Below, in pieces: positions 6,234-56,712 of a DNA stretch of 64,000 nucleotides (the first letter of the stretch is position 1; every line of letters begins with the position of its first letter). Where the stretch lies: positions 3,152,281 through 3,216,280 of the forward strand of contig OX422190.1 of NCBI GenBank assembly GCA_949130485.1, given 5' to 3'. The position numbers and the translations under genes were made by a program. The stretch is from Agelas oroides (Eukaryota; Porifera; Demospongiae; Agelasida; Agelasidae). The notes beneath the pieces are model-generated. The model was not told where the DNA came from. It did not search any database and was given only the letters and a program-made list of their open reading frames with translations.

Positions 6234-7170
6234 TCAAAGCCCAACTTTCTTACCAGTGGATGCAGCCTGTTGGACGGCCTTGCCAAATGAGTAATCAATA
6301 GGCTGGAAAGTGGACTCCCTCAACCAATCGGCTGCACACATGATATCCTTTGTGGTCACGCAACGGTTCTTGGCTGCTGATGTGGATGCAGCTCGGGTAG
6401 AGTGTGCCTTAAAACTCGAATCCACTCCAGCCTTCATCAACATGTTTCTGATCCATCTTGAAATTGTAGCCGATTGCACAGGCTTGTGCGGCTTACTATA
6501 CAGCGGGTTTGCCACACTTCCAGTAGGGCGGTGGATGATTGTTCTACTCTCATTGTGTCGCAGAGTTTCAACAAGGCACACGCTCTTCTCTGGAAATGAC
6601 GGGTAGAAAGCCTGACGTGGGGGTCCAGATCTGCGGGTCTTAGTTAGCCCCAGTATCTCAAAAGTGACCCCCTCTGGTGAGAAATTCCTATATCTAAGGT
6701 CAAGAGCGTGTAGATCAGAGGCTCTATCGGCGTTCATGAGAGCCATCAGGGTTACCAACTTCCAAGACAGATCTTTCAATGAAAGCCTGTCTGATGGTTG
6801 AATATGTACAACGTCTCTACGTTCCAAACTGACTGGTACTTATAGGTCTGGGTGGTCGGGAGTTGAAAAATCCCTGCATTAGCCTACAAACAGTGGGGTG
6901 TTTCCCCACCACGACTCCATCAATGCTCATATGAGACATTGAGATAGCTGAGCAGTGTGTATTGACAGTGCTATATTCCTTGCCTTCCTTATATAAATCT
7001 GTTAGGAATTGGAGGATATCTGCCAGAGATGCAGAAAGGGGATTTGTGTTCTGTTGGTCCCAGCTGACCCAACGTTGCCAAGCTGATTCATAGGATTTTG
7101 CTGTTCCCTTCCTCCAGGACTTGCAGATGATGTCTGCACTCTCCTGCGAAATTCCCTGGTTAGAGAGCAT
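6234..7170 (-). pseudogene. Tyrosine recombinase of a DIRS-like element, frameshifted
   Basis: Two overlapping minus-strand frames (about 7170-6817 and 6827-6234) make one tyrosine recombinase. The upstream part carries the SAM-like core-binding domain (ESADIICKSWRKGTAKSYES, ending GFFNSRPPRP). The downstream part holds the catalytic domain with a RASDLHALDLR arginine region, the HSTRAASTSAA box (H-x-x-R) and a late SFGKAV segment preceded by a candidate nucleophile Tyr in PIDYSF. The enzyme would join a circular DNA intermediate to the genome. The frame changes near 6825, and the N-terminal end is cut by MITE insertions at 7180-7229 and 7248-7575, so it cannot be active. Order and strand match the RNase H and gag-like remains upstream (7685-9102). 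The family call is confident; DIRS versus a related tyrosine-recombinase group is not resolved. Confidence 0.8.
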
Positions 7171-7179
7171 GTTCCGGAT

Positions 7180-7229
7180 TAGTCTCGCGTGGCCACACCC
7201 CGTTCCGCAAGTGTGGCCACGCGAGACTA
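7180..7229. mobile_element. 50-bp MITE, TAGTCTCG family, perfect 9-bp target duplication
   Basis: Ends TAGTCTCGCGTGGCCACACC and its inverted copy ending CGAGACTA flank a tiny centre. GTTCCGGAT is present at 7171-7179 and again at 7230-7238, a perfect 9-bp duplication. It interrupts the recombinase of the DIRS-like element, so it is younger than that element. Confidence 0.9.
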
Positions 7230-7247
7230 GTTCCGGATATGGGCCAC

Positions 7248-7575
7248 TAGTCTCGTCCCCAGACCCCACCCTCTCACGAGGGCAAACGGTCTGGTGAACC
7301 AAGTCGAATTTCTTGGGCTAGCGCACGCGCACGCTTTCGCGACAATGTAACCTAGCAACGATCAAAACATTTTGCGGCCAACCCGCTCAAAAAAGGTACG
7401 GATACTCGAATGGAGATTATCAAATTTTACTGTTGTAAGGGAAGTTTACGTAATAATTACCGATCTCGCGATCTCATTGGCCATTACCCGTTTTGGGTTA
7501 TAAGCCCAAGAAATTCGACTTCGTTCACCAGACCGTTTCTCGCCGGGAGGCGCGCGCGGGCGGGGCACGAGACTA
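7248..7575. mobile_element. 328-bp MITE, TAGTCTCG family, perfect 9-bp target duplication
   Basis: The left end TAGTCTCGTCCCCAGACC is matched by the right end with CGAGACTA, and inner arms around AAATTCGACTT/AAGTCGAATTT are also inverted. ATGGGCCAC occurs at 7239-7247 and 7576-7584. The insertion lies 9 bp from the smaller MITE at 7180-7229, whose right duplication abuts this one's left duplication. The centre has CpG-rich GCGCACGCGCAC sequence and no gene. Confidence 0.9.
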
Positions 7576-7684
7576 ATGGGCCACGCGGCTAAAGCAAGAT
7601 GGCCGTTCAGGATCAGTGGGTGTTGCTCCTGCTGTGGATTCAGGAGTAAGTCCGGAGATGACGGAAGGATCACTGGATTGTTGC

Positions 7685-8590
7685 TCAGTATTGACAGCAG
7701 GAGAGGGTACCAGATTTTGGGCTGGCCAGACTGGAGCTATCAGGTAGTGATCTCGTCTTCTCTCTGCGTACTTTCTGCAGGCAACGACCAATTAGGGCGA
7801 AGGGGGGAAATGCATATGGGTGCTCTTGACTCCATGGGTGAGCCAGAGCATCCACCGCCAATGCCAGCGGATCTGGCCTCCAACTGAAAAACCGGTTCAC
7901 TTGCGTGCTCCAGTGTGAGGCAAACAGGTCGATTGAAAAAGGGCCAGACTGGGCATTCAGCTGTAAAAAGGTCTCTGGATTCAGTTTCCAATCACTGCAA
8001 TCGGATAGGTGGCGGGACTCGTAATCTGCAAGCATTCAACTTGCCTGGCAGGTGCTCCACATGTATTGTGATCTGGTGTTTCATGCACCAGTCCCAGAAC
8101 TCCACCGCCAGCTTGCACAGCTGCAGAGAGTGTGTCCCCCCCCCATCTGATTTATGTATGCAACCGCCACCTGGTTGTTGAGAAAAATTTGAACATGGCA
8201 TGAATGTTTCACAAATGTCTGAGTGGCTAGGAAGGCCGCTTTTAGTTCCAGTCAGTTGATGTGTGCTTGTGACTCTTCGCGAGTCCATGCAAGATCCCCC
8301 TGTTGAGATGTCGTTCTCTCTGCAATGAGCTCCCCAGCCTTTCTTGGAGGCATCCGACTCGAGAACCAGTGTCGGTTCTGCCGAATAAATTGGCCTTCCA
8401 TTGTGATGATGGAGCGAGTGGATCCACCACTGTAGATCTTCTACTGCTTCTGATGAAAGCTTCACAGAGGTGTCATAGTCTGAGGACCCCTTCTGTCCCA
8501 GAGCTTCCATCCTTAGGCTCTGAAGGGCTCTGTAATGTAACGGGGCTGGGTGGATGGCAGGTAGGACTGACTTCCCGCCATCTCTGAAAG
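7685..8590 (-). pseudogene. RT-connection and RNase H remnant of the DIRS-like element
   Basis: Minus-strand frames at 8705-7992 and 8035-7685 encode a region normally downstream of the reverse transcriptase palm. It has PAIHPAPLHYRALQSLRM, DLQWWIHSL, an RNase H-type LESDASKKGWGAH (first catalytic Asp), EHLPGKLNA near the end of RNase H, and then the SIDLFASHW motif common in DIRS and Ngaro polyproteins. The reading frame breaks more than once, for example around 8250 and 8020. The reverse transcriptase palm with its YxDD box is absent: sequence passes from the gag-like frame straight into the connection domain near 8590. This is therefore an internally deleted, dead copy. Confidence 0.75.
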
Positions 8591-9102
8591 CCGGGCCCCC
8601 TCGATAAAACTTTCCATCTGGTTTCGCACCTTGGGCCTTCCCTGCTGTTTTGTTGAAGGCTGCCAGGGTATCCACCCTCTCTGATATAGTAAACTGCTGG
8701 CCCAAACAGCAATGCCCCTTCGGGCTTATTCTTCTTGCAGGCGCTCTTCAGCACCCTACAGAGACTCCTCTTTTTCTTACTAAGTTTGCCAATGATCAGG
8801 TCTCGCCTGATCTCTGAGACGTAGTTGGAGGCATTTCTCAGTAGGACTAATGATTTTTGAATCATTTCCAATACTACTTCTGTCTGGATTAGGCCGCCCT
8901 GCCCAACCGTGAGTTGCTGCTCCTCCAAGTGTGCCCACAGATTCAATACTGGCGCTCCGGCTGAAATGACTGCTGTCTGAATGCTCTTGTAGTGCTCCTC
9001 TGAAGATGATGGGAAGTCATTACCCATGTAGTCCACTAGAACATCATCCATTTCGGGTGGATGGAGTGATGGAGGGTCTGGGAGAGGATTGTCTCTAGCC
9101 AT
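8590..9102 (-). pseudogene. Gag-like N-terminal ORF of the DIRS-like element
   Basis: The frame starts with Met at 9102 and reads DNPLPDPPSLHPPEMDDVLV, then a helical stretch (VLNLWAHLEEQQL, EMIQKSLVLLRNASNYVSEI) and RRDLIIGKLSKKKRSL, which resembles the gag-like first ORF of DIRS-type retroelements. It keeps an open frame into the junction with the RNase H region. Position and strand fit a gag, deleted RT, RNase H, recombinase order. No zinc knuckle is visible. The family call depends on the neighbouring genes more than on this sequence. Confidence 0.55.
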
Positions 9103-9675
9103 GGCTGTCTGAGAGCTTCAGTTTTCAGTTTGCATGGTCAATATGACTCCGGTTCAAATTGGATCATGTGGGTACAGTACCTAGAATGCACAACTGTCAA
9201 CACTGAAGAAAACAGCAGGACAATAAATGAGACGGATAATTTATAGATCAGCAATTACAAACTTAGTCTCAAACCCAGATCCCACTCCAAAGAGGAAAGG
9301 GGAGTCTGGCGAATATAGTACAGCCTCACGCCATGGGCTAGGGAACGAGGCTATTGCATGTGCCTAATCATGTCATGATCATGCAGTTTTATATGCAGAG
9401 AATTGTGCTAGCTATGCATGTTGGGTGGTCAGGGTTCAATTTAGGGGGAGGGGGGAGGAGCTTTTCTCCCAAACACTCCAGCTTCCCCACCCAAATATTT
9501 TACTAGTTCCAGGAAAAATATGTGGTTAAATCCTGTGTTGTGAGTATATACCACAACGGTATTCATTCACGCAAAAAGATCGGCAATACAAGTGGCGCGC
9601 CTATGCACGGATACAACGTGTCACAAAAAGTTTAAAATTAATGCTTGCACAGTGCAGGTATAAGCTCCACTGACC
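9103..9675. other. Intergenic region and presumed tyrosinase promoter
   Basis: It lies between the 5' end of the DIRS-like relic and the tyrosinase start. A TATATA-like string (gagtatatacc) is at about 9540-9551, some 130 bp before the start codon. No recognisable gene was seen. Part of this must hold the 5' UTR and promoter of the downstream gene. Confidence 0.35.
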
Positions 9676-11349
9676 ATGTTGCTCGCCATTTGGTTCATGC
9701 TACTTCTCTCAGTGCCCTTGGTGTGGGGGCAGTTCCCTGCTGTCTGCAATACCCCCGACAGCCTCAACGCCAAGGAATGCTGTCCAAACGACTGCAGCGG
9801 ACGTGGCAATTGCATGGACATCACCAATGATGTTGTGATGTCCTGGAATAGTGCTGATGAAAGTGTTGTTGAGATATTGCGCAATGGTCCGGCGAATGAT
9901 CCTAATGAAAGTTGGCCATTAGATGTACGATACCAGTGGCCTCTGCGCGTCTTTGAAAGGGTTTGCAACTGCAGTACAGGATGGGGGGGCTACGATTGCA
10001 GTCGGTGCGATTTCGGCTACGTTGTCAACGGAGATAGGTGTGTGAAACAAAATGATGAAAATCAACTTCCTGCTCGAGAGAACTTTGCGGAACTGGATCC
10101 AGTAAAGCGAAGCGAATACATCAGGGTCATCAGAGCAGCTAAGAATGAGATGGAGGAGAGATGGGCAGTTGTAGTTCGTGAGCCGACAGACAGTAACGGA
10201 TCTTTTGTACTGCAGAATGTTTCAACTTACGATATGTTTGTGACACTGCATGCTCTTGCGGGCAGAGAACAAGATACTAAACCAGCTTGCAAAGATGTTC
10301 TTGGTGGAGTGAAAATCGATTTTGCTCACCAAGGCCCTGCTTTCTTGACCTGGCATCGTTACTACCTTCTGATAGTGGAGAGTGAATTTCGCCGAGTTGC
10401 AGAGGGAATGGGCATCACGAACTTTACCTTACCATACTGGGATTGGCAATTAGATAATGAAGCAATCTTTCATAACGATCTATTTGGCACACCTTCATAC
10501 AACACTAAAATGCAGGTTGTTGTTTCTGGGACACTCTTTGAGAACTGGCCAACTGTTTGTGACCAGCATTATCGTTTATACGCCGACGAGAGCGTCCCTT
10601 GTAGGGAAGTAAGAAGGTTGTGCAACGTTAACGATGACCGTCTTGCTGGGCGACGCTTGGAACGTGGAAAGGCCCCCAAACTGATGGATGACGATCTTTT
10701 CCTTCCAGATGAAAGTTCTGTTGTATTGGCCTTGGTTTCTGGTAATAACAATGACCAATACGGATTCAGAAACCGTCTGGAGGGTTTTGTGGACCTGTGT
10801 CCTGGTAATAGCCCACAGTGTATTAAATATGTGGCGGGTGACATGGGTACACACAACAATCTGCATAACGCTGTGCATATCTTCTTAGGTGGTCATATGC
10901 GAATCGTTCCTTCGGCTAGCAATGATCCAATATTCTTCCTGCATCATGCAAATGTTGATCGTCTTTTTGAAAGCTGGATAAGAAAATTTAATGGCAATCT
11001 ACCTGACTACAGCATGACAGCAAGTGGTGGACATCCCGGTCACAACCTGAATGACTATCTTGTACCATTTTTCCCACTGAGGACAAATGCAGACATGTAC
11101 AAAAGATCATCTGAGCTTGGTTTCCGCTATGACATGCTGCAGCAGACTGACAACCTACCTTCAGATGATTCTCTCACCAGCATGCCGTGCACTAGCACAT
11201 GTATGAAGGGAGGGTACAGTGAACCAGTAGCATCACCCACACCAATTGCAACTCCGACAACTTCTACAACTGACTCATCCAACTCCATCTACCACATTCA
11301 GCTGTATTTGCTGTTATTTGGATTTGCCATAGCTGCCATTCTCATGTGA
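9676..11349 (+). CDS. Tyrosinase-family binuclear copper oxidase, secreted or membrane-anchored
   Basis: This 557-residue single-exon gene begins with a signal peptide (about residues 1-19, LLAIWFMLLLSVPLVWG). Next is a Cys-rich EGF-like N-terminal region (CCPNDCSGRGNC, CNCSTGWGGYDCSRC) like that of vertebrate tyrosinase and TYRP proteins. Copper site A is seen in His192, FAHQGPAF (His218) and TWHRYY (His227). Copper site B is seen in HNNLHNAVH (His397, His401) and FFLHHANVDR (His424). The family oxidises phenols to quinones. The last 20 residues are hydrophobic with no tail, which fits either a membrane anchor or a GPI signal. All six expected His ligands are present, so it looks functional. 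It has no introns, unlike the spliced genes nearby, which suggests retroposition or ancestral intron loss. Its exact substrate is not predictable. Confidence 0.93.
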   Translation: MLLAIWFMLLLSVPLVWGQFPAVCNTPDSLNAKECCPNDCSGRGNCMDITNDVVMSWNSADESVVEILRNGPANDPNESWPLDVRYQWPLRVFERVCNCSTGWGGYDCSRCDFGYVVNGDRCVKQNDENQLPARENFAELDPVKRSEYIRVIRAAKNEMEERWAVVVREPTDSNGSFVLQNVSTYDMFVTLHALAGREQDTKPACKDVLGGVKIDFAHQGPAFLTWHRYYLLIVESEFRRVAEGMGITNFTLPYWDWQLDNEAIFHNDLFGTPSYNTKMQVVVSGTLFENWPTVCDQHYRLYADESVPCREVRRLCNVNDDRLAGRRLERGKAPKLMDDDLFLPDESSVVLALVSGNNNDQYGFRNRLEGFVDLCPGNSPQCIKYVAGDMGTHNNLHNAVHIFLGGHMRIVPSASNDPIFFLHHANVDRLFESWIRKFNGNLPDYSMTASGGHPGHNLNDYLVPFFPLRTNADMYKRSSELGFRYDMLQQTDNLPSDDSLTSMPCTSTCMKGGYSEPVASPTPIATPTTSTTDSSNSIYHIQLYLLLFGFAIAAILM

Positions 11350-12061: not shown

Positions 12062-12898
12062 ATGTATCAAGTTTGCGTAGGGTATATGTATTTGTGCATG
12101 GTTTATAGAAACCATGCACAAATATACCCTACGCAAACTTGATAGACTATAAACCATGCACAAATATACCCTACGCAAACTTGATAGACTATAAACCATG
12201 CACAAATATACCCTACGCAAACTTGATAGACTACAAACCATGCACAAATACACCCTACGCAAACTTGATAGACTATAAACCATGCACAAACATACCCTAC
12301 GCAAACTTGATAGACTACAAACCATGCACAAATATACCCTACGCAAACTTGATAGACTATAAACCATGCACAAACATACCCTACGCAAACTTGATAGACT
12401 ACAAACCATGCACAAATATACCCTACGCAAACTTGATAGACTACAAACCATGCACAAATATACCCTACGCAAACTTGATAGACTATAAACCATGCACAAA
12501 CATACCCTACGCAAACTTGATAGACTACAAACCATGCACAAATATACCCTACGCAAACTTGATAGACTATAAACCATGCACAAACATACCCTACGCAAAC
12601 TTGATAGACTATAAACCATGCACAAACATACCCTACGCAAACTTGATAGACTACAAACCATGCACAAACATACCCTACGCAAACTTGATAGACTATAAAC
12701 CATGCACAAATATACCCTACGCAAACTTGATAGACTACAAACCATGCACAAATATACCCTACGCAAACTTGATAGACTATAAACCATGCACAAACATACC
12801 CTGCGCAAACTTGATAGACTATAAACCATGCACAAACATACCCTACGCAAACTTGATAGAGACCATGCACAAATTTTCCCTACGCAAACTTGATACAA
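12062..12898. repeat. 42-bp minisatellite, about 18 direct units plus one inverted unit at its left end
   Basis: The unit reads CCATGCACAAATATACCCTA followed by CGCAAACTTGATAGACTATAAA. Because 42 is a multiple of 3 and the unit lacks stops in several frames, long spurious ORFs run through it on both strands. Units differ mainly at ATAT/ACAT and TATAAA/TACAAA. The first unit (12063-12107) is the reverse complement of the rest, giving a foldback junction at about 12108. The array lies inside the duplicated flank of the tyrosinase; the paralogous position (about 13890-13945) has only a short degenerate equivalent, so the expansion happened after the duplication. Confidence 0.95.
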
Positions 12899-19597: not shown

Positions 19598-20090
19598 TTT
19601 ATGGCAGTAAACAAACCTTGTCCTCGGGCTTCGCCCTCGGACTCGGTTCGTTTACTCCCATAAATCCCTGGCCCCGTGCTATAACTATTACATAATTATC
19701 ACCATAGTACAAAGCTATACCGGAAAATATCACGAGTTTGTTGCTGTCTGTATTGTTACGAGTGCGCAGCACGAGTAACAATGCCAACGGCAACAAACTC
19801 GTGATATTTTTTCCAGTATAGCTTGGTACTATGGTGATAATGATTTTATCATACGAACCTTCGATTTCATTGCACGTTCAGACGCAGCGCACGTGACTTG
19901 TAGTACCTGATACGGATTCTCGCGTGACTTGTAGTACCTGATACGGATTCTCGCGTGACTTGTAGTACTGATACGGATTGTCGCGTGACTTTTAGTAAAA
20001 AAATACGGCTTTTTATAAACTGCGTGCAGCTGCAAGGCTTCCCCATTGACTCCCATACATTAGCGTGAGTTAGACGTATGATAATACTGT
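19598..20090. mobile_element. Foldback element nested in Ginger-like copy 2
   Basis: ATTATCACCATAGTACAAAG (about 19693) is inverted at about 19825-19848, around ACTCGTGATATT arms. To the right lie three imperfect repeats of CGCGTGACTTGTAGTACCTG and ATACGGATT. A reverse-orientation relative occupies about 24539-24815, and the terminal block CTTCCCCATTGACTCCCATA recurs at about 62412-62465. It has no coding capacity. Boundaries are approximate. Confidence 0.6.
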
Positions 20091-20169
20091 GTAGTACTAT
20101 ACCTTGCAGGTTCACGGATGCATGTATACATAACCCATTTACAATATCTCTCCACCCTCCCTTACCCTC

Positions 20170-20719
20170 AGCCATCCAGATCTTCTACAATGGCTATGCC
20201 CATTGGGTGACTACCTTCTCTGACGGGAATGAAATTTTTCTCTTTGACAGCCTCACACGTGATGACCTCCCATCCACACTGGAAGAGCAGATTGCAGCTG
20301 TGTATGCTAGTTTTTGCAGTAAGGATGGCTTGTTGACGATCACCAAGGTTGGTGTTCAGCAGCAAAAGGGTATGACAGACTGTGGGCTGTTTGCGATTGC
20401 CTTTGCCTATCACTCTGCACGAGGTGACGATGTCGCAAAGCTTGAATTCGACCAATCAATTATGCGACAACACCTTCTGGACTGCTTCCAGTCAGAGGAG
20501 CTTAAGCCTTTTCCGATGACCACTGCCAAGCCAAAGAAGCGAAAACCCAAGCACATATTCATACATTTATACTGCACTTGCCTAATGCCTGCAAGTTATG
20601 ATGTGCAGATGATAGAATGTGATGTATGTGCCAAATGGTTCCATTTTAAGTGTGTAGGTTTGAGAGGGAAGTGCCCAAAGAGATGGGTTTGTAGGTGTTG
20701 TCGTTATGATACATTGTAG
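20170..20719 (+). pseudogene. Ulp1-type (C48) cysteine protease plus PHD finger, Ginger-like copy 2
   Basis: The open frame carries a protease core with all triad motifs: GYAHWVT (His), IFLFDSLT (Asp) and QQKGMTDCGLFAIAFA (oxyanion Gln region and nucleophile Cys). Ulp1/SENP enzymes cleave ubiquitin-like modifiers; in transposons the domain is an acquired accessory. A basic linker KPKKRKPKH then leads to a PHD-like C4HC3 finger (YCTCLMPAS, ECDVCAKWFHFKCVG, CRCC). This part has no internal stop. The upstream end runs into an inserted foldback element, so the reading frame's natural start is lost. Confidence 0.75.
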
Positions 20720-39557: not shown

Positions 39558-42500
39558 TTACCACCTATTGTAGTTCTCAGAAAGATAAATAAAATCCGAT
39601 GTCTTATACCACAAACAATCTGTATCTGATGGTACATTAAATTTCGTTTCTTCTTCAACTTTTGGTGTGTACAATCCAGCCACTCCTGTAAGTATGTATG
39701 CAAGAAGTAAGTGTTTATAATTAGTGACATGGCAGTTTAATCCACTTGTTAACAGTTTCCGTGAAAAACTGTAACTGGTCACTGTGTATAGCTTTAATCT
39801 TATATTTTCTACTCAGGACAAAAGCTGTGCTACATGCAGCTAGGGTAGCTTCTATAACTGTGCTACTTACCTATAGAACGAGTCTGGTATCTAACAGAAT
39901 GAGTGATTACTCCTCACTCTAGTTTTGATGATAGCACTAGGTGGTAAATACTGACAGCTGTATTATTAACATAATCTCTTACCTGCATGTAATTTCTGTC
40001 TTATCCTGAAGTAATTGAATGGTTTCCTGGCTCCCTGCAGTTCCACTGTGTAGTCCAGCTCTAGGGGAAAATCTGCTTCAAGTGGTGAACCCACATACTT
40101 AATGTAGAGGTGGCATTCTGGAAGCTGGCCTTCCCTGTAGCTATCAGCCTGCTGTTTCGATATCTGTAAATAACACGGGCAGTAATTATGCATACAAGTG
40201 TACATAACGTATAGTGCAAGTGTCTTCTAAAGTGGCAATAAAGTAACATCCAAAGGTATTACACATGCAATTCAGTAGTAAAGACACGTATTGTAGTGGG
40301 TTTAAATAGGGTATCAGTATGCATCCTAATTAGAGCTGTTTTGGGGTATGTGTGCAAATAGCTGGCCTCATTCCTAGACCTTCCTCCTTTTTTGTTCATC
40401 GGTTTGTGTCCAATATGGTACACAAAAGCAGAAGAGTGGCGAAAACAGGGAAGCAATTATCACGTAAGGTGCATGGATGCAAAGTGGGCCAATCTCATAA
40501 ACATCTGAGGTAATGCTTAGTGATGGAGTGGCTCAATGATGAACTCTATAATGTGGTCTTTGAATGTGGATGACACTTCCACCTTGATGTTTATCATGTT
40601 CTCAGGCTTTCCCTGCTTTTTTGCCCTCTTTCACTTCGTGATCTGTTTATTATTTAGAACAAAAACCAAAGAACAAAGAAATGGGGGAGGCATGGGAATG
40701 AGGCTATACATATAGAAATACACATGTAGCAGCACAAGAGTAATTTAATCCTGGTCCACTGTGCCACGCAATGTCCGCAACACTGACTCCAAAGATGAAG
40801 TATTCAGTAAGAAATTCAAAAACAAAAACTTGCATCTGTGTTGCTCTAATTTGAAGGCGTCTCTCTAAAGAAGAGTCTGCAGTAATTTTTCCTATCAGAA
40901 GATGTGGATTGTAATGATGTTTTAATTAGAGTGGCTATGGTAAGGCATCACATTCACTGCTGAGTTTGCCTTACTTACCCCTGGATGTGTAGTTGGAGTG
41001 ATCTTCCATCCTTCAGCAGTAGTGACTCCATCCTTTGGGATACTGAGGGAAATGATATCCTTCTTGAATGAGACCACTTGACTGGGGCCGCACTGGGTGT
41101 GGGAATACTTCTTCTTAGCAATCTGTAGGTCAATGCAAATGTGTTACATCTGGATACAATGGCTACTAACTTGATCATGAATGTGGCCAGTATGATCCAA
41201 TAGTGCATAAGCTGATAAGCACCTTCCCTTTTGTTGCAAGGCTTGCATGAATGTAGTGAAGCAAACAGCCCAAAACCATGTAAACAATTTGTTTACCACC
41301 ATTATTATACATACCTGAAGCCATGGGTCATGGTCTCGGACGACAGTGAAGTAGACAGACCACTCTGTTAGGCTCTCTGCACTAAAGTACACACTTGCAC
41401 GATACCTGCACTGATTGTCACTGGAGAGCAATGCTCGAATTCTTGGTTCATGCTTTACAATAGCAATCAGCGTGGGTTTACTGTCAAACTGTGAATGAGT
41501 GATGCTTCCATGGGTGGGAGAGAAGTGTGACCTGGATGAAGGATCTGCAGTTTCAAATTTATACATTGGTGCTCCACTGTGGAAATGTGGAGCGCAAACA
41601 AATGCGAGATTTTTCTTGCTGACTGCACAGTGCTGTATCTCAATGTTAATAGACCCAGCCAGTTTTCCCTTCACAACCTGAATACAGTAGACTGCGCTAA
41701 CAAGCTCACAATGCTTTGGGAATTCAAACTGACCAGACAGGCTGACGTAGATCAGAATTTCAACAGTCTCCTTAACAGCATCTGCAGGCACATTAAGTTT
41801 AAGTCCACTGCCTTCCCAGGTGAAACTCTGAAGGGACTCGCTACTGGACACTGTAACTCTCACTTGTTTAACCACTTCCAGATTAGGTTCTGTAAGAACG
41901 TAAAAATAAACCAGTTAATCTATCCAGATGAAAAGTAACTGGTGTTGTCATTAGATCACTACACATTTATAAAGTACATGAAAAAAATCAATGAACCACA
42001 TCTCTAATGGTGTCCCAAAAAATCACCCACTATGCAGGACATGTTTTGGATAGGGCATATGTATCAGGTGCTAGTACAACAATGCACAAGTGATAAGGAA
42101 GGGAGGAAGCTGAGATGTAGGGAGGCAATGAACAGCCAGCCCCTACAAAACAGGTCAAGTCAACCAGAGTAAGTAATGGTTAACCGACGGAGTGTCAAAT
42201 GTTGACGTTCCAGTTTGCTTTACCCCTCGCCCATCATACCTTTCCCAGAGATTTGCTTCATGGTGAATGCAGTTGTTCAATTTACCATTGTACTGTGAAA
42301 TGCAGGCAAGCAGATGTATGTGCATGTACTGCAGTGGGTTATTATGTATGTACAAACTGGGGAAGTTCAGTGTGTATATTTTATCATGCATCATTTTGAG
42401 TGTGTGATAGAATGCAATCTACTTTTTCATTTGTTTAGGCTCATTCTGGTTGATTTGACTACTCATTTGTATTAATGCATAACATGCACACAAAGAACAC

Positions 42501-44163: not shown

Positions 44164-44171
44164 TGACGTCA
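44164..44171. promoter_or_regulatory. CRE-like palindrome TGACGTCA upstream of ZU5-A
   Basis: A perfect TGACGTCA lies about 190 bp upstream of the ZU5-A start codon. CREB/ATF factors bind this sequence in animals. The 6-bp target duplication of the large transposon (TCATGG, 44169-44174) overlaps its right half. Functional status is inferred from motif and position only. Confidence 0.4.
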
Positions 44172-44779
44172 TGGTGCGGTGGCCCGGTCAGCTCACTTCT
44201 AACTTTGCGATATTACATTCGACATTCCGTCAGTGCGCAGTCGATTTCCGTTAGTGCGTTTCCACTTTTGCGTTTCTGACAAGCGCGTTTCTGCTTTTGC
44301 ACTACAACTTCGCTAAACAACACTTACAGTATCGCGTTCAATTCGGATTTACGGTATACACGTGGCTTGTTTACGTTTCCTCTACTGCTACCTCCGCGCT
44401 TCTACTGCTACCTCTAGGCTTCTACTGCTACCACTGCGCCTCTACTGCTACCACTGCGTCTCCCTACTGCCAAGTAAGAGAGGTCAGTGTGGGGGGAAGG
44501 GTTAATTATGCCGCTGCATGTGGAGGCTTGAGCAGCTGTGCATTCCCAATATTAAATAATATTGTCTAGGTTGTGCCTGCCAATTCCTCAGAAACCCACT
44601 AATCAAGCCCTTCAGAAAAATCTTCAGAGGGTTGATGGGTTATCCTATTGCAAAACTTGATGTACCCGCATTCTATAGCCAGCCGAAGTTCTTTGTTGGA
44701 TCAAAGCTAGCTGTCAAAGCAGGTGCTACGATTTGTGCTCAAGATTTGGTGCTCACGGGCAGTAGTCCCTTCCAAAATG

Positions 44780-47700
44780 TATTTTAAAGTCTGGTGTGTG
44801 TACGTGGAAAAGAATCGAGTAACGAGCTTGGTGTATTAGGGTGCGTAGGAAGGACCCATTCTTGTTCGGTTTAAAAATAAAGCCTGTTGGGTGGGTTATG
44901 TTTGCAGTGCTGGTTACTAGCCTGTATTGGAGCTAGGAGGTTGAAAGTTGACATGTGGGTAGGCAACTCATCACTTTATGTTTGTACTGCGTTGGGTGGG
45001 GAATGGGTGTGGCTTAGCCTGCATCAAAGGAAGAGCATTTTACCTTATTTTAAGCTACTACATATGCAATGCAAATGGGCCTTTGTGCTCAATATTTGGT
45101 GTGCACGGTCAGTAGTCCCTTTCAAAATGTAATTTAAAGTTTGGTGTGTGTACGTGGAAAGGAATCGAGTAACGTGCTTGGTGTATTAGGGTGCGTAGGA
45201 AGGACCCATTCTTGTTCGGTTTTAAAATAAAGCCTGTTGGGTGTGTTATGTTTGCAGTGCTGGTTACTAGCCTCTATTGGAGCTAGGAGGTTGAAAGTTG
45301 ACATGTGGGTAGGCAACTCATCACTTTAAGTTTGTACCTAGTTGGGTGGGGAATGGGTGTGGCTTAGCCCGTATCAAAGTGAGAGTATTTCACCTTGATT
45401 TAAGCCACTACACATGCAATAGAAATGGGCCTTTGTGCTCAATATTTGGTGTGCACGGTCAGTAGTCCCTTCCAAAATGTAATTTAAAGTTTGGTGTGTG
45501 TACGTGGAAACGAATCGAGTGACGAGCTTGGTGTATTAGGGTGCGTAGGAAGGACCCATTCTTGTTCGGTTTTGAAATAAAGCCTGTTGGGTGTGTTATG
45601 TTTGCAGTGCCGGTTACTAGCCTGTATTGGAGCTAGGAGGTTGAAAGTTGACATGTGGGTAGGCAACTCATCACTTTAAGTTTGTACCGAGTTGGGTGGG
45701 AATGGGTGTGGCTTAGCCTGCATCAAAGGAAGAGCATTTCACCTTATTTTAAGCTACTACATATGCAATGCAAATGGGCCTTTGCGCTCCAGATTTGGTG
45801 TGTACGGGCAGTAGTCCCTTCCAAATCGTAAAATAAAGTTTGGTGTGTGTACGTGGAAAAGAATCGAGTAACGAGCTTGGTGTATTAGGGTGCGTAGGAA
45901 GGACCCATTCTTGTTCGGTTTATAAATAAAGCCTATTGGGTGGGTTATGTTTGCAGTGCTGGTTACTAGCCTGTATTAGAGCTAGGAGGTTGAAAGTTGA
46001 CATGTCGGTAGGCAACTCATCACTTTATGTTTGTGTCGAGTTGGGTGGGGAAAGGGTGTGGCTTAGCCTGCATCAAAGGAAGAGCATTTCACCTTATTTT
46101 AAGCTACTACATATGCAATGCAAATGGGCCTTTGCGCTCCAGATTTGGTGTGTACGGGCAGTTGTCCCTTCCAAATCGTAAAATAAAGTTTGGTGTGTGT
46201 ATGTGGAAAAGAATCGAGTAACGAGCTTGGTGTATTAGGGTGCATAGGAAGGACCCATTCTTGTTCGGTTTATAAATAAAGCCTATTGGGTGGGTTATGT
46301 TTGCAGTGCTGGTTACTAGCCTGTATTGGAACTAGGAGGTTGAAAGTTGACATGTGGGTAGGCAACTCATCACTTTATGTTTGTACCAAGTTGGGTGGGG
46401 AATGGGTGTGGCTTAGCCTGCATCAAAGGAAGAGCATTTTACCTTATTTTAAGTCACTACGTATGCAATGCAAATGGGCCTTTGCGCTCCAGATTTGGTG
46501 TGTACGGGCAGTAGTCCCTTCCAAATCGTAAAATAAAGTTTGGTGTGTGTACGTGGAAAAGAATCGAGTAACGAGCTTGGTGTATTAGGGTGCGTAGGAA
46601 GGACCCATTCTTGTTCGGTTTTAAAATAAAGCCTGTTGGGTGTGTTATGTTTGCAGTGCCGGTTACTAGCCTGTATTGGAGCTAGGAGGTTGAAAGTTGA
46701 CATGTGGGTAGGCAACTCATCACTTTAGGTTTGTACCAAGTTGGGTGGGAATGGGTGTGGCTTAGCCTACATCAAAGGGAGAGCATTTCACCTTATTTTA
46801 AGCTACTACATATGCAATGCAAACGGGCCTTTGCGCTCCAGATTTGGTGTGTACGGGCAGTAGTCCCTTCCAAATCGTAAAATAAAGTTTGGTGTGTGTA
46901 CGTGGAAAAGAATCGAGTAACGAGCTTGGTGTATTAGGGTGCGTAGGAAGGACCCATTCTTGTTCGGTTTAAAAATAAAGCTTGTTGGGTGGGTTATGTT
47001 TGCAGTGCTGGTTACTAGCCTGTATTGGAACTAGGAGGTTGAAAGTTGACATGTGGGTAGGCAACTCATCACTTTATGTTTGTACCAAGTTGGGTGGGGA
47101 ATGGGTGTGGCTTAGCCTGCATCAAAGGAAGAGCATTTTACCTTATTTTAAGTCACTACGTATGCAATGCAAATGGGCCTTTGCGCTCCAGATTTGGTGT
47201 GTACGGGCAGTAGTCCCTTCCAAATCGTAAAATAAAGTTTGGTGTGTGTACGTGGAAAAGAATCGAGTAACGAGCTTGGTGTATTAGGGTGCGTAGGAAG
47301 GACCCATTCTTGTTCGGTTTTAAAATAAAGCCTGTTGGGTGTGTTATGTTTGCAGTGCCGGTTACTAGCCTGTATTGGAGCTAGGAGGTTGAAAGTTGAC
47401 ATGTGGGTAGGCAACTCATCACTTTAGGTTTGTACCAAGTTGGGTGGGAATGGGTGTGGCTTAGCCTACATCAAAGGGAGAGCATTTCACCTTATTTTAA
47501 GCTACTACATATGCAATGCAAACGGGCCTTTGCGCTCCAGATTTGGTGTGTACGGGCAGTAGTCCCTTCCAAATCGTAAAATAAAGTTTGGTGTGTGTAC
47601 GTGGAAAAGAATCGAGTAACGAGCTTGGTGTATTAGGGTGCGTAGGAAGGACCCATTCTTGTTCGGTTTAAAAATAAAGCTTGTTGGGTGGGTTATGTTT

Positions 47701-47995
47701 GCAGTGCTGGTTACTAGCCTGTATTGGAAGTAGGAGGTTGAAAGTTGACATGTGGGTAGGCAACTCATCACTTTAGGTTTGTACCAAGTTGGGTGGGAAT
47801 GGGTGTGGCTTAGCCTACATCAAAGGGAGAGCATTTCACCTTATTTTAAGCTACTACATATGCAATGCAAACGGGCCTTTGCGCTCCAGATTTGGTGTGT
47901 ACGGGCAGTAGTCCCTTCCAAATCGTAAGATAAAGTTTGGTGTGTAATGGAAAAGAATCGAGTAACGAGCTTGGTGTATTAGGGTGCGTAGGAAT
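44780..47995. repeat. Left ~350-bp tandem array of the large transposon
   Basis: Units share GGGTTATGTTTGCAGTGC, GGAGGTTGAAAGTTGACATG, GGCAACTCATCACTTTA and AGGAAGGACCCATTCTTGTT. Period is about 350 bp. The stretch from 46321 repeats exactly 699 bp later at 47020, so two-unit higher-order blocks have been copied recently. Repeated 60-90 codon frames in both directions are by-products of the repetition. Confidence 0.92.
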
Positions 47996-48310
47996 GACCT
48001 ATTTTAATACAGTTTAGCATTAGCTCTGAATATGTTACAGGTTTGAAATGAAGTGTAATTATGTTATGGAGTTATGGAAGCTTTTGTATTCAACTTTGCC
48101 GATGAAGATGAGTTGGCTGTTGTTTTTTCTTGTGTTGTTTGCACCTGGTGAGGCTCAAGGAAATGTACCTCAGCCTGAAACTGATCGTGAGGAAGTATTT
48201 TAATCGTTACATGACCTGAAAACTGTTATTGCAAAGCTGCATTGCTTGTTAGAAAGACATCTCAAGGTAAACTATTGTAATAATCATCATTTATTTACAT
48301 TGCTATACAG

Positions 48311-50207
48311 AGCTTGTGAAGACGTACTTTCACCTTGGGAAAAGTTACAGCATGATACTAGCTTATCTGCTGGCACGACATAGTATTCATGTCAGGTTAG
48401 TATGGAGTTGTTCAGGACATGTTTGGTACTACTTTAACAATACATACTATATTTCCTATATCAAGACAGCTTTTAATTTGCATTATGTCACAGTTTGTCA
48501 TGGTTGAAGCGCAGGCTTTCTTTTCTTGGCCTTCGACGGAGGGGAGTGGTTGAACGCCCAGCAGACATAGCTGCAAGCCGTCAAGCCATAAGAGTGAAGT
48601 GGCTATCAATTAAGCATCATGATGTAAACATTAGTGTATATGGTGCCCTTATCTCTAGATTGAACTTCAGACTGCAAACTGTGGGCTAGGCTATCGGAGC
48701 ATGTGGTTACTCCTAAAAATGAAGTACAAAATTTTTGTGAAAAGGTAATTATATGCCAGCTATATCTGTACATGTGATACCTGTACACAAATTTTGTTTC
48801 CTACTCAAGAGACACAGTGCGTAAACTACTGAAAGAGTTAGACCCAAGTGCTGTTAGCTTACGCAGGAGGCGAAGGTTGAAACGACGAAAGTACCTCAAT
48901 CTAGTAATCTTGGTGTTGAAATTTGATGATGTAACTCAACTGAAATGTGATCTTCCTTTGTTATGGTGTACAGGGTCCAAACTTTGTTTGGCATGCTGAT
49001 GGGTATGACAAGCTATCACGTTTTGGCTTCACCATACATGGATGTATAGATGGGTACGGGTTGGCTTTATGTGGTTAATGTATGTATAATTACTATGTGT
49101 ACGATTAATATGCTTTTGAATCTTCTGGCTGATAATGTAGGTTTTCACGCCGAATGTTATGGCTGGAATTGTCTCCAACAAATCATGATCCCAAAGTTAT
49201 CATAATGTACTACATGCAGGCAGTTGCTGAGTATGGAGGTGTGTGTGTGTGTACATGAACAGAAATGTATGCATGATGGTACATTTTCCGTGTTGCACTT
49301 ATGATTTGGAGGTTGTTATTGTTATAGGTTGTCCCACTGTAATGAGATGTGACTATGGGACAGAGAATTGCCTCCTTGCGACTACACAGATGGCACTTCG
49401 ACATGGACATGGTGATACCTGGGCCGGGTTGAAGTCATTTAAGTATGGAAAATCAACATCAAATACTGTAAGTTTTAAAAATTGAACTGCCTTGCAAAGA
49501 GTGACAAGATACTTGTACTTTTGCAGCGCATTGAAGGATTGTGGTCATTCTTGAGGAAGTGGAAGACAAGTTGGTGGATTCATAAATTCCAGGTACATCA
49601 TGATTATCTGTTACCTGAATGACTTGTTAGCAACACACCCTGTTACTGTTTGGTCATTCAGGATATGATTCAAGCTGGTCTTCTTAACCCTAATAATATG
49701 GATCATAAGTAAGTCGCTGCATATATGTATGTGCAAATGAATCATGTTACACATACATTACTGTGCAGGTACAGCCTTGCATATGTTTATGCCCAACTTC
49801 TTCATCAAGACCTGGTTGAGTTTGTTGAAATTTGGAATAATCATCGGCTGCGTAAGAATCATTTAGCAAATTGTCCTTCAGGGATTCCAAATGACATACA
49901 CAGATTACCTCACAAGTATGGTATGTCTTATCTTGTTTTACTTGAAATACTACCAGTATATTATGTATTTGTCACTTTACACTGTACAGGAACCACAAAT
50001 TATCTTCGCACTCCAGTTGATGTGGATGTGTTTCGTGAAGCTGCTCATCAATTTTGTGCAGCAAAGCCTCAATTCTTTCCTGTTGAATTTTCACGGCTTG
50101 CTGATGCAGTGCTATCTCAGGAGCTGAATATGGTGCATAGTGACATAACACATGCCAACTGTGATGCCGTGTTTCGTACAATTACTGAATTTATGAATAC
50201 ATTGTGA
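48311..50207 (+). CDS. DDE (rve-like) transposase of the large transposon, 11 recognisable exons
   Basis: Exons: 48311-48395, 48494-48593, 48671-48744, 48810-48903, 48974-49053, 49141-49238, 49328-49467, 49527-49592, 49662-49708, 49769-49920, 49990-50207. They join in phase to 383 codons without a stop. The first exons form an N-terminal helical DNA-binding region (YFHLGKSYSMILAYLLARH, LKRRLSFLGLRRRG, GYRSMWLLL, DTVRKLLKELDP). The catalytic triad is seen at WHADGYDKL (Asp), RCDYGTEN (Asp) and RIEGLWSFLRKW (Glu), with HGCIDGFSRRMLWLE between. The C-terminus has LPHKYG and YLRTPVDVD. Such proteins are widespread in cnidarian and fish genomes with integrase-core annotation. The 5' start exon is unresolved: a stop-free extension exists only to about 48215. 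Intactness suggests recent activity. Confidence 0.85.
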
Positions 50208-50427
50208 ACCTGAAGAGCAGTTAGTAATGGATTATGCATGACTTGTTCAAGTTAGTTGACAGAGTGAGACAGTTGTAGACACCAGTGAGTACACACAAAA
50301 TGGAATGCCCACAAGCAGTTGACTTACAAGTTACGAAACTATTACAAATTACCAACCAAAAAAGTAGAGCTAATGGTTAATGTGTTCAAACTGTTCTGTT
50401 TTTTTCAAGTTGGAGTGGTATAATGCT

Positions 50428-52681
50428 CTACTGTAGGACCACCAGCTTGTAATGAACCACCTCCTCCAGTAACTGCAGGACCTAATCAACCGTACACAAT
50501 AGAGTGAACACGCAAATATGTATGAGGAAGCAGGAAAAAGAGCATGCATACCTTATCCATCGTTGCTCTCTTGTGTCTTTTTGCCACACACATACGGCAC
50601 AACTCCTGCATTTCTTTGTATGGAATCTGGCATGTTCCACTGGTCTGTCGAAGACGTAGCCCAGAGAGATTCTTAAACAAGTCTAACTCCAACAGTGCCT
50701 CGTCAAACATATCATACTAGGAAAAGATACAAATTCACTGCAAATTAACGCAATTTCACTATATGTTATAGATAAACCACAGTAGACAGGGATTTATGGT
50801 CCATAAACCACCCGAGCCCGAGGGCGCAGCCCAAGGGCAAGGGTTGTTTATGGACCATAAATCCCTGTCTACTGTGGTTTATCTGTTATATTCTCCACTC
50901 TGATTGGTCCTTGTTGTTATTAGTAAATACACATGGTAGTTTTCACTGTAAACAAGGTATGTTATTAGTAAACATGTAAAGTAATTTACACTCTAAACAA
51001 GGTAGCTTATAGGACACATCATTTTACAACTTCCTGTGGTATATGGAACAGAATCTACAGAATCTACAACTTCCTGTCAGTATATGGAAAATAATACCCA
51101 CCTGTTACCACAGAAACAAGGGTGAAGTGGAGTATATAGTGACTTAAACAGCTATATACACAACACCTGGTATGCAATCCATGGTACTCACAAGGCAAGG
51201 AATTTTTCTCTGTTTGTCATAAGCACGTAATTCTGAGTACATTTCAAGCGCAACCTGCAATAAACCAGTTATTATTGAACATGACAGGAATATATACATA
51301 CATGTACCAACACTTATACTTACAACTCCAAATCCAAAAACGTCCACTTTCTCTCCCAGTTCACCTCGCTCAAATTCAGGAGCCATGTAGCCAGTTGTTC
51401 CACATGTTTCAGTAGTGCGGATGAAACTTTTACCCTCAGGAATTTTTGGCAGTGGTCTAGCAAAACCAAAATCTCCAAGTTTGGCTGTCATATTGTGATC
51501 TAACAAGATGTTTGAGCTGTGTAAATGATAAAAATTTCATGCTCCATGCCAAGATTTCAGTGGACATCTAAGGAATATTAAGTATAGGAACATCACTGTG
51601 ACTTCAGGTTGCGTTAATTTTGTAAGGTAATGATGACTATTCATGTTGAAAGGTAGCTTACCTTTTCACATCTAGATGCAATACTGGCACTAGTCCTCCT
51701 TCCCGAGAGTGCAGGTAGGCTAGCCCCGTAGCAGCCTCATACAATATTTTAAGTCGCATTTGTGCATCCCCGAGCTTACGATGCTGTATGATCAGAATGA
51801 CAAATAAGAACAGCAGCTTTACAGTTATATAAGATTGTTTTACTACCTGTTGTCCCTGGAACAGCATTGTATAGAGTGACCCATTATCCATCAGCTCATA
51901 GATGATGGTGAGACATGTTGGGAGAGTGCACACACCCAGAATCATTACTAAGTTCGGATGGCGATACCTGAAGAAACTGTCCAAGTGTTGCAAAGGCAGT
52001 TTCATCCAGTCTTGCACCACTATGCACTACCACCAGATTGTGTGGATTCGTATCCAGGCCAAACAGCTCTGCGCACTTCCTCTTAACTGTGACAAGATTG
52101 TCTGCCTCATTGAGGAAGCCAACTTTCACCAGCTCAGATGTACGTTTCCACTGGAGGTTGTTGAGTGTTTTTTCAGCCATAAACACATTGATCTAAAGAA
52201 TGGACATTTTTGACTCAAGTAGCGCTAACAAAAGTCCAACCTGTTACATACCAAATGTTTTGTGTTAGGACTGTTGCTTCCACCTCGCCTCATTGCACTT
52301 TGTGATCTTCTGTAGTCAGTCAGGAGGTTGTGGGCATTACTTTCAGGTGTTGGCCTACTCAGGGTTGAAGGACCTGTAAAAACAGTCGGTGTAGTATTGA
52401 TAGCAGTGTAAGGAGACTTTAGTGAAGCATGTAGTCATCATGTTGAAATCTCCATCCTAATGGTATTACAGTCTCACAATTATACATTACACTTAGCATG
52501 CAAGCAAACTGTACCAGTTTCAGAGCGTTGGTCAAGTTGGCTAATAATTCCAGTGAGAACACGTCTGAGTTCACCTAAGTATATTAATATAATTTAGCTA
52601 ATTAATCAACATCAAGTATACTAGTACAGAGCAGGGTACATGACCAAAAGAACACACTTCATGAACCAACCCACCTGCCAT
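50428..52681 (-). CDS. IRAK/Pelle-like kinase gene inside the transposon, N-lobe missing
   Basis: Exons on minus: 52681-52675 (start MAG), 52574-52515, 52373-52252, 52192 to about 51968, 51967-51847, 51783-51662, 51516-51324, 51254-51192, 50716-50552, 50481-50428. The N-terminal part is new to me ([14 protein letters not shown], then a possible ubiquitin-like [29 protein letters not shown]). The kinase half has [34 protein letters not shown] (HRD changed to HLD), [22 protein letters not shown] and [16 protein letters not shown]. The Gly loop and the ATP-binding Lys are absent. Exons 4 and 5 do not join in frame by any standard donor, so the gene is off by one base there. It is a pseudokinase, a pseudogene, or a gene with an unusual splice. 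It lies tail-to-tail with the transposase, 220 bp apart. Confidence 0.7.
50765..50890. mobile_element. Palindromic MITE in a kinase intron
   Basis: GATAAACCACAGTAGACAGG followed by GATTTATGGTCCATAAAC is inverted on the right, ending CTGTGGTTTATC. The centre has CCCGAGCCCGAGGGC. Relatives with GGGATTTATGG are at 38273-38365 and 38644-38700. It lies between kinase exons at 50716 and 51192. Confidence 0.8.
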
Positions 52682-52959
52682 TTTCACTTTGTAAACCACA
52701 AGTCTAAATTGAACAAAGCACACTGAGTCAGTGCTTTAATACATAAATATATGACTTCTACATCACAAAGTACATGCTGAGTGGCTCACATTTAAAACAT
52801 CTTTAATTACATCGTGAACCACACCATTATGTGTCCAATATGATATTAATATCAAAAGTAAAGTCATCTACTACACACACACTTTTTCTCATCTTCACTA
52901 TAATGCAGGCAAAATCTTGTGTTCAAACAACCCTTTCCTGTCATATACGCTGGGGTTTT

Positions 52960-55370
52960 AGTTAAAGGGAAATGCTGTTACATTGATACGGGATAAGCCA
53001 CACCCATTCCTCACCCAACTCGGTACAAACCTAAAGTGATGAGTTGCCTACCGACATGTCAACTTTCAACCTCCTAGCTCCAATACAGACTAGTAACCAG
53101 CACTGCAAACATAACCCACCCAACAGGCTTTATTTTAAAACCGAACAAGAATGGGTCCTTCCTACGCACCCTAATACACCAAGCTCGTTACTCAATTCTT
53201 TTCAACATACACACACCAAACTTTAAATTACATTTTGGAAGGGACTACTGCCCGTACACACCAAATCTGGAGCGCAAAGGCCCATTTGCATTGCATATGT
53301 AGTAGCTTAAAATAAGGTGAAATGCTCTTCCTTTGATGCAGGCTAAGCCACACCCATTCCCACCCAACTCAGTACAAACATAAAGTGATGAGTTGCCTAC
53401 CTACATGTCAACTTTCAACCTCCTAGCCCCAATACAGGCTAGTAACCGGCACTGCAAACATAACACACCCAACAGGCTTTATTTTAAAACCGAACAAGAA
53501 TGGGTCCTTCCTATGCACCCTAATACACCAAGCTCGTTACTCGATTCTTTTCCACATACACACACCAAACTTTATTTTACGATTTGGAAGGGACAACTGC
53601 CCGTACACACCAAATCTGGAGCGCAAAGGCCCATTTGCATTGCATATGTAGTAGCTTAAAATAAGGTGAAATGCTCTTCCTTTGATGCAGGCTAAGCCAC
53701 ACCCTTTCCCCACCCAACTCGACACAAACATAAAGTGATGAGTTGCCTACCGACATGTCAACTTTCAACCTCCTAGCTCTAATACAGGCTAGTAACCAGC
53801 ACTGCAAACATAACCCACCCAATAGGCTTTATTTTTAAACCGAACAAGAATGGGTCCTTCCTACGCACCCTAATACACCAAGCTCGTTACTCGATTCTTT
53901 TCCACATACACCCACCAAACTTTAAAATACATTTTGGAAGGGACTACTGACCGTGCACACCAAATATTGAGCACAAAGGCCCATTTCTATTGCATGTGTA
54001 GTGGCTTAAATTAAGGTGAAATACTCTCACTTTGATACGGGCTAAGCCACACCCATTCCCCACCCAACTCGGTATAAAACCTAAAGTGATGAGTTGCCTA
54101 CCCACATGTCAACTTTCAACCTCCTAGCTCCAATACAGGCTAGTAACCAGCACTGCAAACATAACCCACCCAACAGGCTTTATTTTTAAACCGAACAAGA
54201 ATGGGTCCTTCCTACGCACCCTAATACACCAAGCTCGTTACTCGATTCTTTTCCACGTACACCCACCAAACTTTAAAATACATTTTGGAAGGGACTACTG
54301 ACCGTGCACACCAAATATTGAGCACAAAGTCCCATTTCTATTGCATGTGTAGTGGCTTAAATTAAGGTGAAATACTCTCACTTTGATATGGGTTAAGCCA
54401 CACCCATTCCCCACCCAACTCGGTATAAACCTAAAGTGATGAGTTGCCTACCCACATGTCAACTTTCAACCTCCTAGCTCCAATACAGGCTAGTAACCGG
54501 CACTGCAAACATAACCCACCCAACAGGCTTTATTTTTAAACCGAACAAGAATGGGTCCTTCCTACGCACCCTAATACACCAAGCTCATTACTTGATTCTT
54601 TTCGACATACACCCACCAAACTTTAAAATACATTTTGGAAGGGACTACTGACCGTGCACACCAAATATTGAGCACAAAGGCCCATTTCTATTGCATGTGT
54701 AGTGGCTTAAATTAAGGTGAAATACTCTCGGTTTGATACGAGCTAAGCCTCACCCATTCCCCACCCAACTAGGTACAAACTTAAAGTGATGAGTTGCCTA
54801 CCCACATGTCAACTTTCAACCTCCTAGCTCCAATACAGGCTAGTAACCAGCACTGCAAACATAACCCACCCAACAGGCTTTATTTTTAAACCGAACAAGA
54901 ATGGGTCCTTCCTACGCACCCTAATACACCAAGCTCATTACTCGATTCTTTTCAACATACACCCACCAAACTTTAAAATACATTTTGGAAGGGACTACTG
55001 ACCGTGCACACCAAATATTGAGCACAAATGCCCATTTCTATTGCATGTGTAGGGGCTTAAATTAAGGTGAAATACTCTCACTTTGATACGGGCTAAGCCA
55101 CACCCATTCCCCACCCAACTCGGTATAAACCTAAAGTGATGAGTTGCCTACCCACATGTCAACTTTCAACCTCCTAGCTCCAATGCAGGCTAGTAACCAG
55201 CACTGCAAACATAACCCACCCAACAGGCTTTATTTTTAAACCGAACAAGAATGGGTCCTTCCTACGCACCCTAATACACCAAGCTCGTTACTCGATTCTT
55301 TTCCACGTACACACACCAGACTTTAAAATACATTTTGGAAGGGACTACTGCCCGTGAGCACCAAATCTTG
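52960..55370. repeat. Right ~350-bp tandem array of the large transposon
   Basis: It holds about seven units in reverse orientation to the left array, with CATGTCAACTTTCAACCTCC, GCACTGCAAACATAACCCAC and AACAAGAATGGGTCCTTCCT as markers. Several units carry ACCGTGCACACCAAATATTG where others have the left-array-like CCGTACACACCAAATCTGG, so two unit subtypes exist. Confidence 0.92.
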
Positions 55371-56712
55371 AGCACAAATCGTAGCACCTGCTTTGACAGC
55401 TAGCTTTGATCCAACAAAGAACTTCGGCTGGCTATAGAATGTGGGTACATCAAGTTTTGCAATAGGACAACCCATCAACCCTCTGAAGATTTTTCTGAAG
55501 GGCTTGATTAGTGGGTTTCTGAGGAATTGGCAGGCACAACCTAGACAATATTATTTAATATTGGGAATGCACAGCTGCTCAAGCCTCCACAACCCTTCCC
55601 CCCACACTGACCTCTCTTACTTGGCAGTAGGCAGACGCAGTGGTAGCAGTAGAGGCGCAGTGGTAGCAGTAGAAGCTTAGAGGTAGCAGTAGAAGCGCGG
55701 AGGTAGCAGTAGAGGAAACGTAAACAAGCCACGTGTATACCGTAAATCCGAATTGAACGCGATACCGTAAGTGTTGTTTAGCGAAGTTGTAGTGCAAAAG
55801 CAGAAACGCGCTTGTCAGAAACGCAAAAGTGGAAACGCACTAACGGAAATCGACTGCGCACTGACGGAATGTCGAATGTAATATCGCAAAGTTAGAAGTG
55901 AGCTGACCGGGCCACCGCATCATGGCTCACTCTCCATGACCATATATTCTCCAGGCATGCTAGGGTAGTAGACACAAACGGTTATTGCACTACTGAGAAC
56001 TACTGTGACTGCATACAGAGATAGAGATACTACTGTCAGATGGACACAATGAATTTTAGAAGCTGTGGTTAGTTAAATGGCACAATGAACCACACGATAA
56101 GCCTATGCAAATTTCATGATTGCTCAGTTTAGGTACAGACTAACTGGTTGCTTGCTAACTTTACTACAATTATTGAATGACTCGCTGTCCAAGGGATGAG
56201 ACATTAGCAGATATTTCGTTCTTGTGCTCACTCTCCATAGCTATTTCTTGTTTGTGATTGATACAAGATCCAACATTAACTGGAGGCTCCAGTTGGATCT
56301 CATAGACACCGGCTATACAATACACACTACTAGCTAGCCAGAGAATCCATGGCACTATACAACTAATGCATTATCAACAAAGTTCAATAGCTAAAAACAG
56401 ACATACTGAATAATGTAATGATGAGGGCGGTTCAAGTAAAACTCACACTTTATGTCACATGACTCAAGTTCTATTAAAATTGAGGTTTACAGCAATGGAT
56501 TAAAGTTGCTTTTCTTCATCTAGGTATATTACTAACTACTATAAATATTAGCAAGTGGGTTTTAGCCACACCCACCTTAATTAGCACGTGATTCTATGAA
56601 TATCATTAATATTACTTGAACCATCTTGTTTTTTCCTAACTTTTAACCATGCAGCTGCAGTGTTGCTATAAACTACACTAACTAGATTGCACCTTGCTAG
56701 GCAATTTGTGGT

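Follow-up and report, generated by a model that had tools for sequence, protein, structure and literature searches.

A large sponge transposon with tandem-repeat inverted arms and a protein kinase gene opposed to its transposase gene

A gene for a protein kinase is located between the long inverted arms of a DNA transposon in the sponge Agelas oroides, which raises the question whether this kinase is captured host signalling DNA or part of the element. The transposon occupies positions 44175-55919 (~11.7 kb) of the window, by which we mean the whole analysed stretch of 64,000 nucleotides (assembly GCA_949130485.1, contig OX422190.1, positions 3,152,281 to 3,216,280). An earlier note on this DNA had described a large DDE transposon that has tandem-repeat arms and encloses a kinase gene, and our analysis confirmed this anatomy.

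Perfect 6-bp target site duplications, TCATGG, flank the element at 44169-44174 and 55920-55925. The left inverted arm (44175-48016, plus strand, ~3.8 kb) begins with TGCGGTGGCCCGG and the right arm (52954-55919, minus strand, ~3.0 kb) ends with CCGGGCCACCGCA; the inner end of each arm is approximate. Identity between the arms is 96.5% in the outer 600 bp and 94.2% over the whole match of ~2,970 bp. Most of each arm is made up of a 350-bp tandem array, with 9.4 copies on the left (44732-48003, plus strand) and 6.9 copies of the same unit, inverted, on the right (52965-55378, minus strand). Comparing whole units (nine left, six right) gave a similarity of 94.4% within the left arm, 93.6% within the right arm and 92.5% between the arms. 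Both arms also carry a 20-bp array of 3.9 copies (44381-44458, plus strand; 55636-55713, minus strand). The inverse terminal sequences, the TCATGG duplication on both sides, the ~350-bp arrays in both arms and the mostly satellite-like terminal inverted repeats of about 3.8 and 3.0 kb were all part of the earlier description and agree with these data. Very long inverted arms of tandem repeats with variable copy number are known from the Foldback-type elements of Drosophila, whose transposase and duplication length differ from those of the window element; we know of no kinase in these Drosophila elements.

The transposase gene is located at 48204-50207 on the plus strand. Twelve coding exons, which encode 408 residues, could be read, and the introns between them measure 46-98 bp and have GT..AG borders; the 5′ end is uncertain, as frame 0 has a stop just upstream of 48204 and the start codon could not be placed. 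The protein matches the Pfam family rva_4, an integrase-like DDE catalytic core (E 1.2e-35), and a helix-turn-helix match (HTH_21) stays below the Pfam cut-off. All 32 residues that are invariant among 27 homologs are kept, including the D, D, E triad, with spacings of 58 (D-D) and 40 (D-E), so that the spliced transposase with D, D, E motifs claimed earlier was found as described. A search against PDB sequences yielded nothing useful. For the structure model of a sponge homolog, P0121 (pLDDT 82), the nearest folds are those of IstA, TnsB and retroviral integrases; TM-scores calculated for the whole chain are low. Among the relatives with an organism name, the best belongs to the sponge Dysidea avara; a further high-ranking match carries an "Em" identifier, which we take to be Ephydatia muelleri. 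The name IS3EU is absent from all transposase homologs listed in the database search.

The kinase gene (50550-52681, minus strand, ends approximate) is convergent to the transposase gene. Its hand-joined reading matches Pkinase with E 6.6e-33, and the match begins only at profile position 50; the N-lobe exons with the glycine loop and the catalytic lysine are missing here and present in another copy of the element, C21 (see below). The exon for the N-terminal domain (71 aa, 51968-52180, minus strand) abuts the next kinase exon out of frame, and the window copy is therefore very probably dead as a kinase, its ATP-binding lobe being lost. The IRAK/Pelle-like kinase that the earlier note placed between the arms is thus present, but in a damaged copy. 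Neither the window kinase nor that of C21 has a Pfam match in its N-terminal part, Death domain included, and the fold model of the N-terminal domain (pLDDT 47.5) is too poor to judge the fold. A kinase intron contains a MITE of ~379 bp (50760-51138, plus strand), of which the genome holds dozens of nearly identical copies; an imperfect palindrome of 115 bp lies within it at 50770-50884. Besides the gene pair, the element has no further frame of at least 150 aa.

Other parts of the window hold frames and repeats of various kinds. Overlapping frames at 6234-9117 (minus strand) resemble the remains of a retroelement that encoded a tyrosine recombinase (DIRS-like by eye only), and one of the three frames scanned gave a weak Phage_int_SAM_4 match. 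An unbroken frame of 561 aa with a tyrosinase domain (E 2.9e-40) is located at 9664-11349 (plus strand), and a 42-bp minisatellite of 18.9 copies, with three frames open, at 12109-12895. The frame at 20069-20719 (plus strand), which has a weak terminal PHD finger and, by eye, a part resembling an Ulp1-like protease, may be a gene of another transposon. A weak ZU5 domain, below the cut-off, was seen at 41144-41914 (minus strand).

By its ends and duplication length the window element fits the IS3EU/GingerRoot type, and the integrase-like DDE core of its transposase is as expected for this superfamily. The accessible parts of two publications describe IS3EU with TAYGG..CCRTA ends and 6-bp duplications (PMC12730594), and IS3EU/GingerRoot with 6-bp duplications and TA..TA, occasionally TG..CA, ends (PMC10045372). 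Across the sponge copies the ends are TGCGG, TACGG and TATGG with GTGGCC. The window and C21 elements end in TGCGGTGGCC, that is TG..CA, which they have in common with IS3EU/GingerRoot as portrayed in that part of PMC10045372, together with the duplication length; two further loci end in TACGGTGGCC (L056) and TATGGTGGCC (L054). No clean 6-bp duplication was found for L056, L054 and a short copy, L045.

We searched the genome (259 Mb, 141 contigs) for further copies. The end sequence gave 24 matches, including the window's own two. One of the copies, C21, has both arms, a perfect duplication (CGTGGG) and both genes; its kinase comprises the N-terminal domain, the glycine loop, the lysine and the remainder, with 968 bp between the N-terminal-domain match and the next kinase match. 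A second copy, C1, has both ends and a perfect duplication (CATAAG), no transposase match between the ends, and a kinase scrap, namely a piece of the N-terminal domain that is 74% identical to that of C21. From its sequence, C1 reads as a deletion derivative. The remaining places fetched with the end sequence look like arm fragments or short copies. The earlier note proposed that the kinase would be a stable component if copies existed in which both genes lie between such ends, flanked by 6-bp duplications. C21 is such a copy, and the gene pair recurs in other subfamilies (see below), which supports the proposal; C1, which retains the ends and duplication with no more than the scrap of kinase, speaks against it. 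When the inner part of the window element was used as query, 40 of 1,272 candidates were scored, and these were the element itself or the MITE; copy number beyond the ends therefore rests on protein searches. With the C21 version as query, the kinase N-terminal domain was found at three places in the genome, all three in elements. The C-terminal part was found in C21, in the window and in one fragment on C2.

The arms of C21, which have fewer repeat units, are ~80-82% identical to those of the window at the DNA level. The enclosed genes are far less alike: the transposases show 37-82% identity by pieces, some of which run through introns, and the kinase N-terminal domains 43%. This suggests exchange between elements; it seems that arms are swapped or homogenised faster than the genes diverge, or that genes are exchanged between arm sets. 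The arms of L056 contain a tandem unit of 117 bp (1572-1935, 3.1 copies; 6660-8404, 14.9 copies). No similarity between this unit and the 350-bp unit was detected by blastn, so the arrays of L056 and the window are alike in kind and not in sequence. Array-bearing inverted arms may have arisen more than once.

Five further loci with spliced transposases (L053-L057) were chosen by transposase exons alone, and all five gave a kinase match, weak in L053 and L056. L059, chosen for a transposase with four near-identical copies, holds a kinase of another kind with unbroken exons and the usual motifs (1/1). A generic profile built from 176 database kinases matched in seven of the eight element loci (all but L053) and in one of 13 other control stretches; none of the 26 stretches that surround unspliced transposases, each with a flank of only 1.5 kb, gave a match. 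L031, which is part of C21, and the C1 element are excluded from these controls. When the element kinases served as queries, hits were obtained in two of the 41 control stretches, namely the C1 element itself and L042.

Four kinase segments used as probes identified 100 distinct places in the genome. For 25 of these, among them four loci from which the probes came, the distance to a transposase cluster is at most 3 kb, a zone that makes up 0.25% of the genome. The kinase is convergent to the transposase in 22 of the 25; the exceptions are a mirror copy (C1:11721075), C2:12063827, whose cluster has transposase exons on both strands, and C21:4521922. Clusters with a long unbroken, that is unspliced, transposase match had no kinase beside them in any of 35 cases (four probes, 3 kb), and 24 of the 61 clusters without such a match had one within 3 kb. 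The other 37, C1:20412136 among them, gave no kinase match within this distance, but they also include L053, whose kinase escaped the probes, and absence is therefore not established at these clusters. In one probe search with 85 matches, transposases adjoin 13 of the best 19 and one of the other 66, a split that was set afterwards at a gap in the E-values; for six of the best 19, no transposase was found within 3 kb. The C15-type kinase segment, the kind present in L059, occurs at three places with 100% identity, each adjoining its transposase, and no kinase match was found beside a fourth near-identical C15-type transposase (C1:20412136).

At the mirror copy, one kinase segment lies with equal score on both sides of the transposase C1:11723111-11724363, inverted (C1:11721075, plus strand; C1:11725754, minus strand); this element may carry its kinase gene within its inverted arms. 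Kinase segments closely related to the element kinases, with no transposase found within 3 kb, were seen at C2:9091480, C2:10228004, C2:9972621, C22:931134, C7:9237403 and C10:403809. These are either decayed elements or host source genes.

To place the kinases, 24 reference kinases were picked from the search hits, 20 of which were kept and four dropped by a motif filter; the resulting tree is without L053, L056 and the host kinases of this genome, and several of its rows are half-filled. The kinases of the window, C21, L054, L055 and L057 (A-type) form one clade (support 98/93) inside the branch of IRAK, Pelle and plant receptor kinases (100/99). L059 and six database relatives (B-type, or C15-type) form another (100/99) outside the Pelle/plant receptor kinase branch. 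Two kinase lineages among the elements are well supported by this tree. Among solved structures, the hand-spliced C21 kinase has its best matches in plant receptor-like kinases (E-values starting at 6e-32) and IRAK4 (starting at 5e-30), the B-type kinase in CTR1 and TAK1. For the B-type, 14 exon-sized database frames (P0241-P0254, 46-80% identity) were found, some of which could be from the same species as the window.

The A-type kinases sit in one branch with IRAK4/Pelle and the plant receptor-like kinases, and differ from IRAK4/Pelle in their N-terminal domain, for which neither the window nor the C21 kinase has a Pfam match, and in the HRD motif. The arginine of this motif is replaced, giving HLD in the window, C21, L055 and L057 and HQD in L059 and three relatives; these kinases retain the aspartate of HxD as well as that of the DFG, DMG or DLG motif. 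The usual kinase motifs are present in C21, L057 and L059, while the L054 and L053 kinases deviate further from the usual catalytic motifs. Thirteen of the 14 B-type frames were inspected and keep the motifs that lie within them, with HQD in the three that are long enough. The main Pfam matches of the element kinases are Pkinase and PK_Tyr_Ser-Thr, and no match to alpha-kinase was obtained up to E 0.01 or 1.

The earlier note knew of no cargo kinase with this type of transposase, which does not hold, since a transposase with an opposed kinase is already described for fungi. In the part of PMC12730594 that was available, every TET-bearing IS3EU family, from rust fungi and truffle, has its TET/JBP gene in the middle, flanked by the transposase gene and by an alpha-kinase gene that runs in the opposite direction to it. 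These families share with the sponge elements the 6-bp duplications, the TAYGG..CCRTA ends and the kinase opposite the transposase. As far as that text goes, they differ in the kinase, which is an alpha-kinase in the fungi and of the Pkinase/PK_Tyr_Ser-Thr kind in the sponge, in the additional TET/JBP gene, which has no counterpart among the frames of at least 150 aa in the window element, and in the inverted repeats, stated as >30 bp in the fungi compared with kilobases of tandem arrays in the window. The word "kinase" does not occur in the IS3EU/GingerRoot paper PMC10045372. The sponge elements are thus set apart from the fungal ones by a kinase of other descent and by the multi-kilobase tandem-repeat arms.

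We consider it probable that these elements form an IS3EU/GingerRoot-type lineage in which many copies encode an integrase-like DDE transposase and, facing it, a protein kinase. As judged from the copies compared, the kinase is part of the transposon lineage and not cargo of one copy. Capture of a host gene by a single copy was set aside; the gene pair recurs in C21 and in other subfamilies. By analogy with the family, the transposase would bind the long arms, move the element by DDE chemistry and leave the 6-bp duplications, and the arrays would provide many transposase binding sites. Their copy number presumably drifts by unequal exchange, since the two arms of a given element carry unequal numbers of units and those of C21 have fewer. 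The kinase might serve the transposon in trans, with the transposase itself or a host factor for silencing or repair as its phosphorylation target, which we propose only tentatively. Counter-silencing is one reading of such a role, because fungal elements, in the accessible part of PMC12730594, pair a kinase with a demethylation-type enzyme; the other is control over the timing of the transposase. With its ATP-binding lobe lost, the window copy would need a kinase from elsewhere or do without.

That relatives repeatedly pair a facing kinase with the transposase suggests that the kinase aids the element rather than being random luggage. Yet the kinases could be passengers, host exons picked up without function for the transposon, as the broken window kinase, the deviating motifs of L053 and L054 and the one C15-type transposase of four without a kinase match beside it would suggest; the two lineages also imply more than one capture. 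Such passengers would hardly be expected to show the constant place and orientation seen in 22 of 25 cases or the usual motifs of C21, L057 and L059; the motifs kept in the 13 inspected database frames and the 0 of 35 unspliced clusters with a kinase also speak against them, and we regard this explanation as rather unlikely.

A coincidence of location, with elements landing beside host kinase genes or host kinases happening to be there, draws on the abundance of kinases in the genome (85 matches in one probe search) and on the one kinase-bearing control stretch of 13. It is very improbable, because the window and C21 kinases lie between the arms and inside the duplications, all three places with the N-terminal domain are elements, and only one of the 66 lower-ranked kinase matches adjoins a transposase. 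An artefact of assembly as the origin of the inverted arms would be conceivable in that the assembly of long tandem arrays in inverted orientation is difficult. The window arms are ~6% divergent and unequal in copy number, however, and C21 and L056 repeat the arm plan elsewhere, each with its own arms, which leaves this explanation with next to no weight.

Returning to a kinase that serves the transposon, IS3EU-type elements may need or gain from a kinase of their own, taken up from at least three descents into the same opposed position: the fungal alpha-kinase, the IRAK-like kinase and the second, TKL-like kinase found here. Such kinase-assisted transposition is a possible reading that we offer with reserve. 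A signalling kinase is here the second gene of an animal DNA transposon lineage, for which we found a parallel only in the fungal passage of PMC12730594. Why one superfamily carries, opposite its transposase, kinases that differ in descent is a question that can be tested. If the kinase indeed regulates the transposase or host silencing, it would represent a type of accessory enzyme new to transposons, and the elements would offer the host a supply of signalling kinases ready for use.
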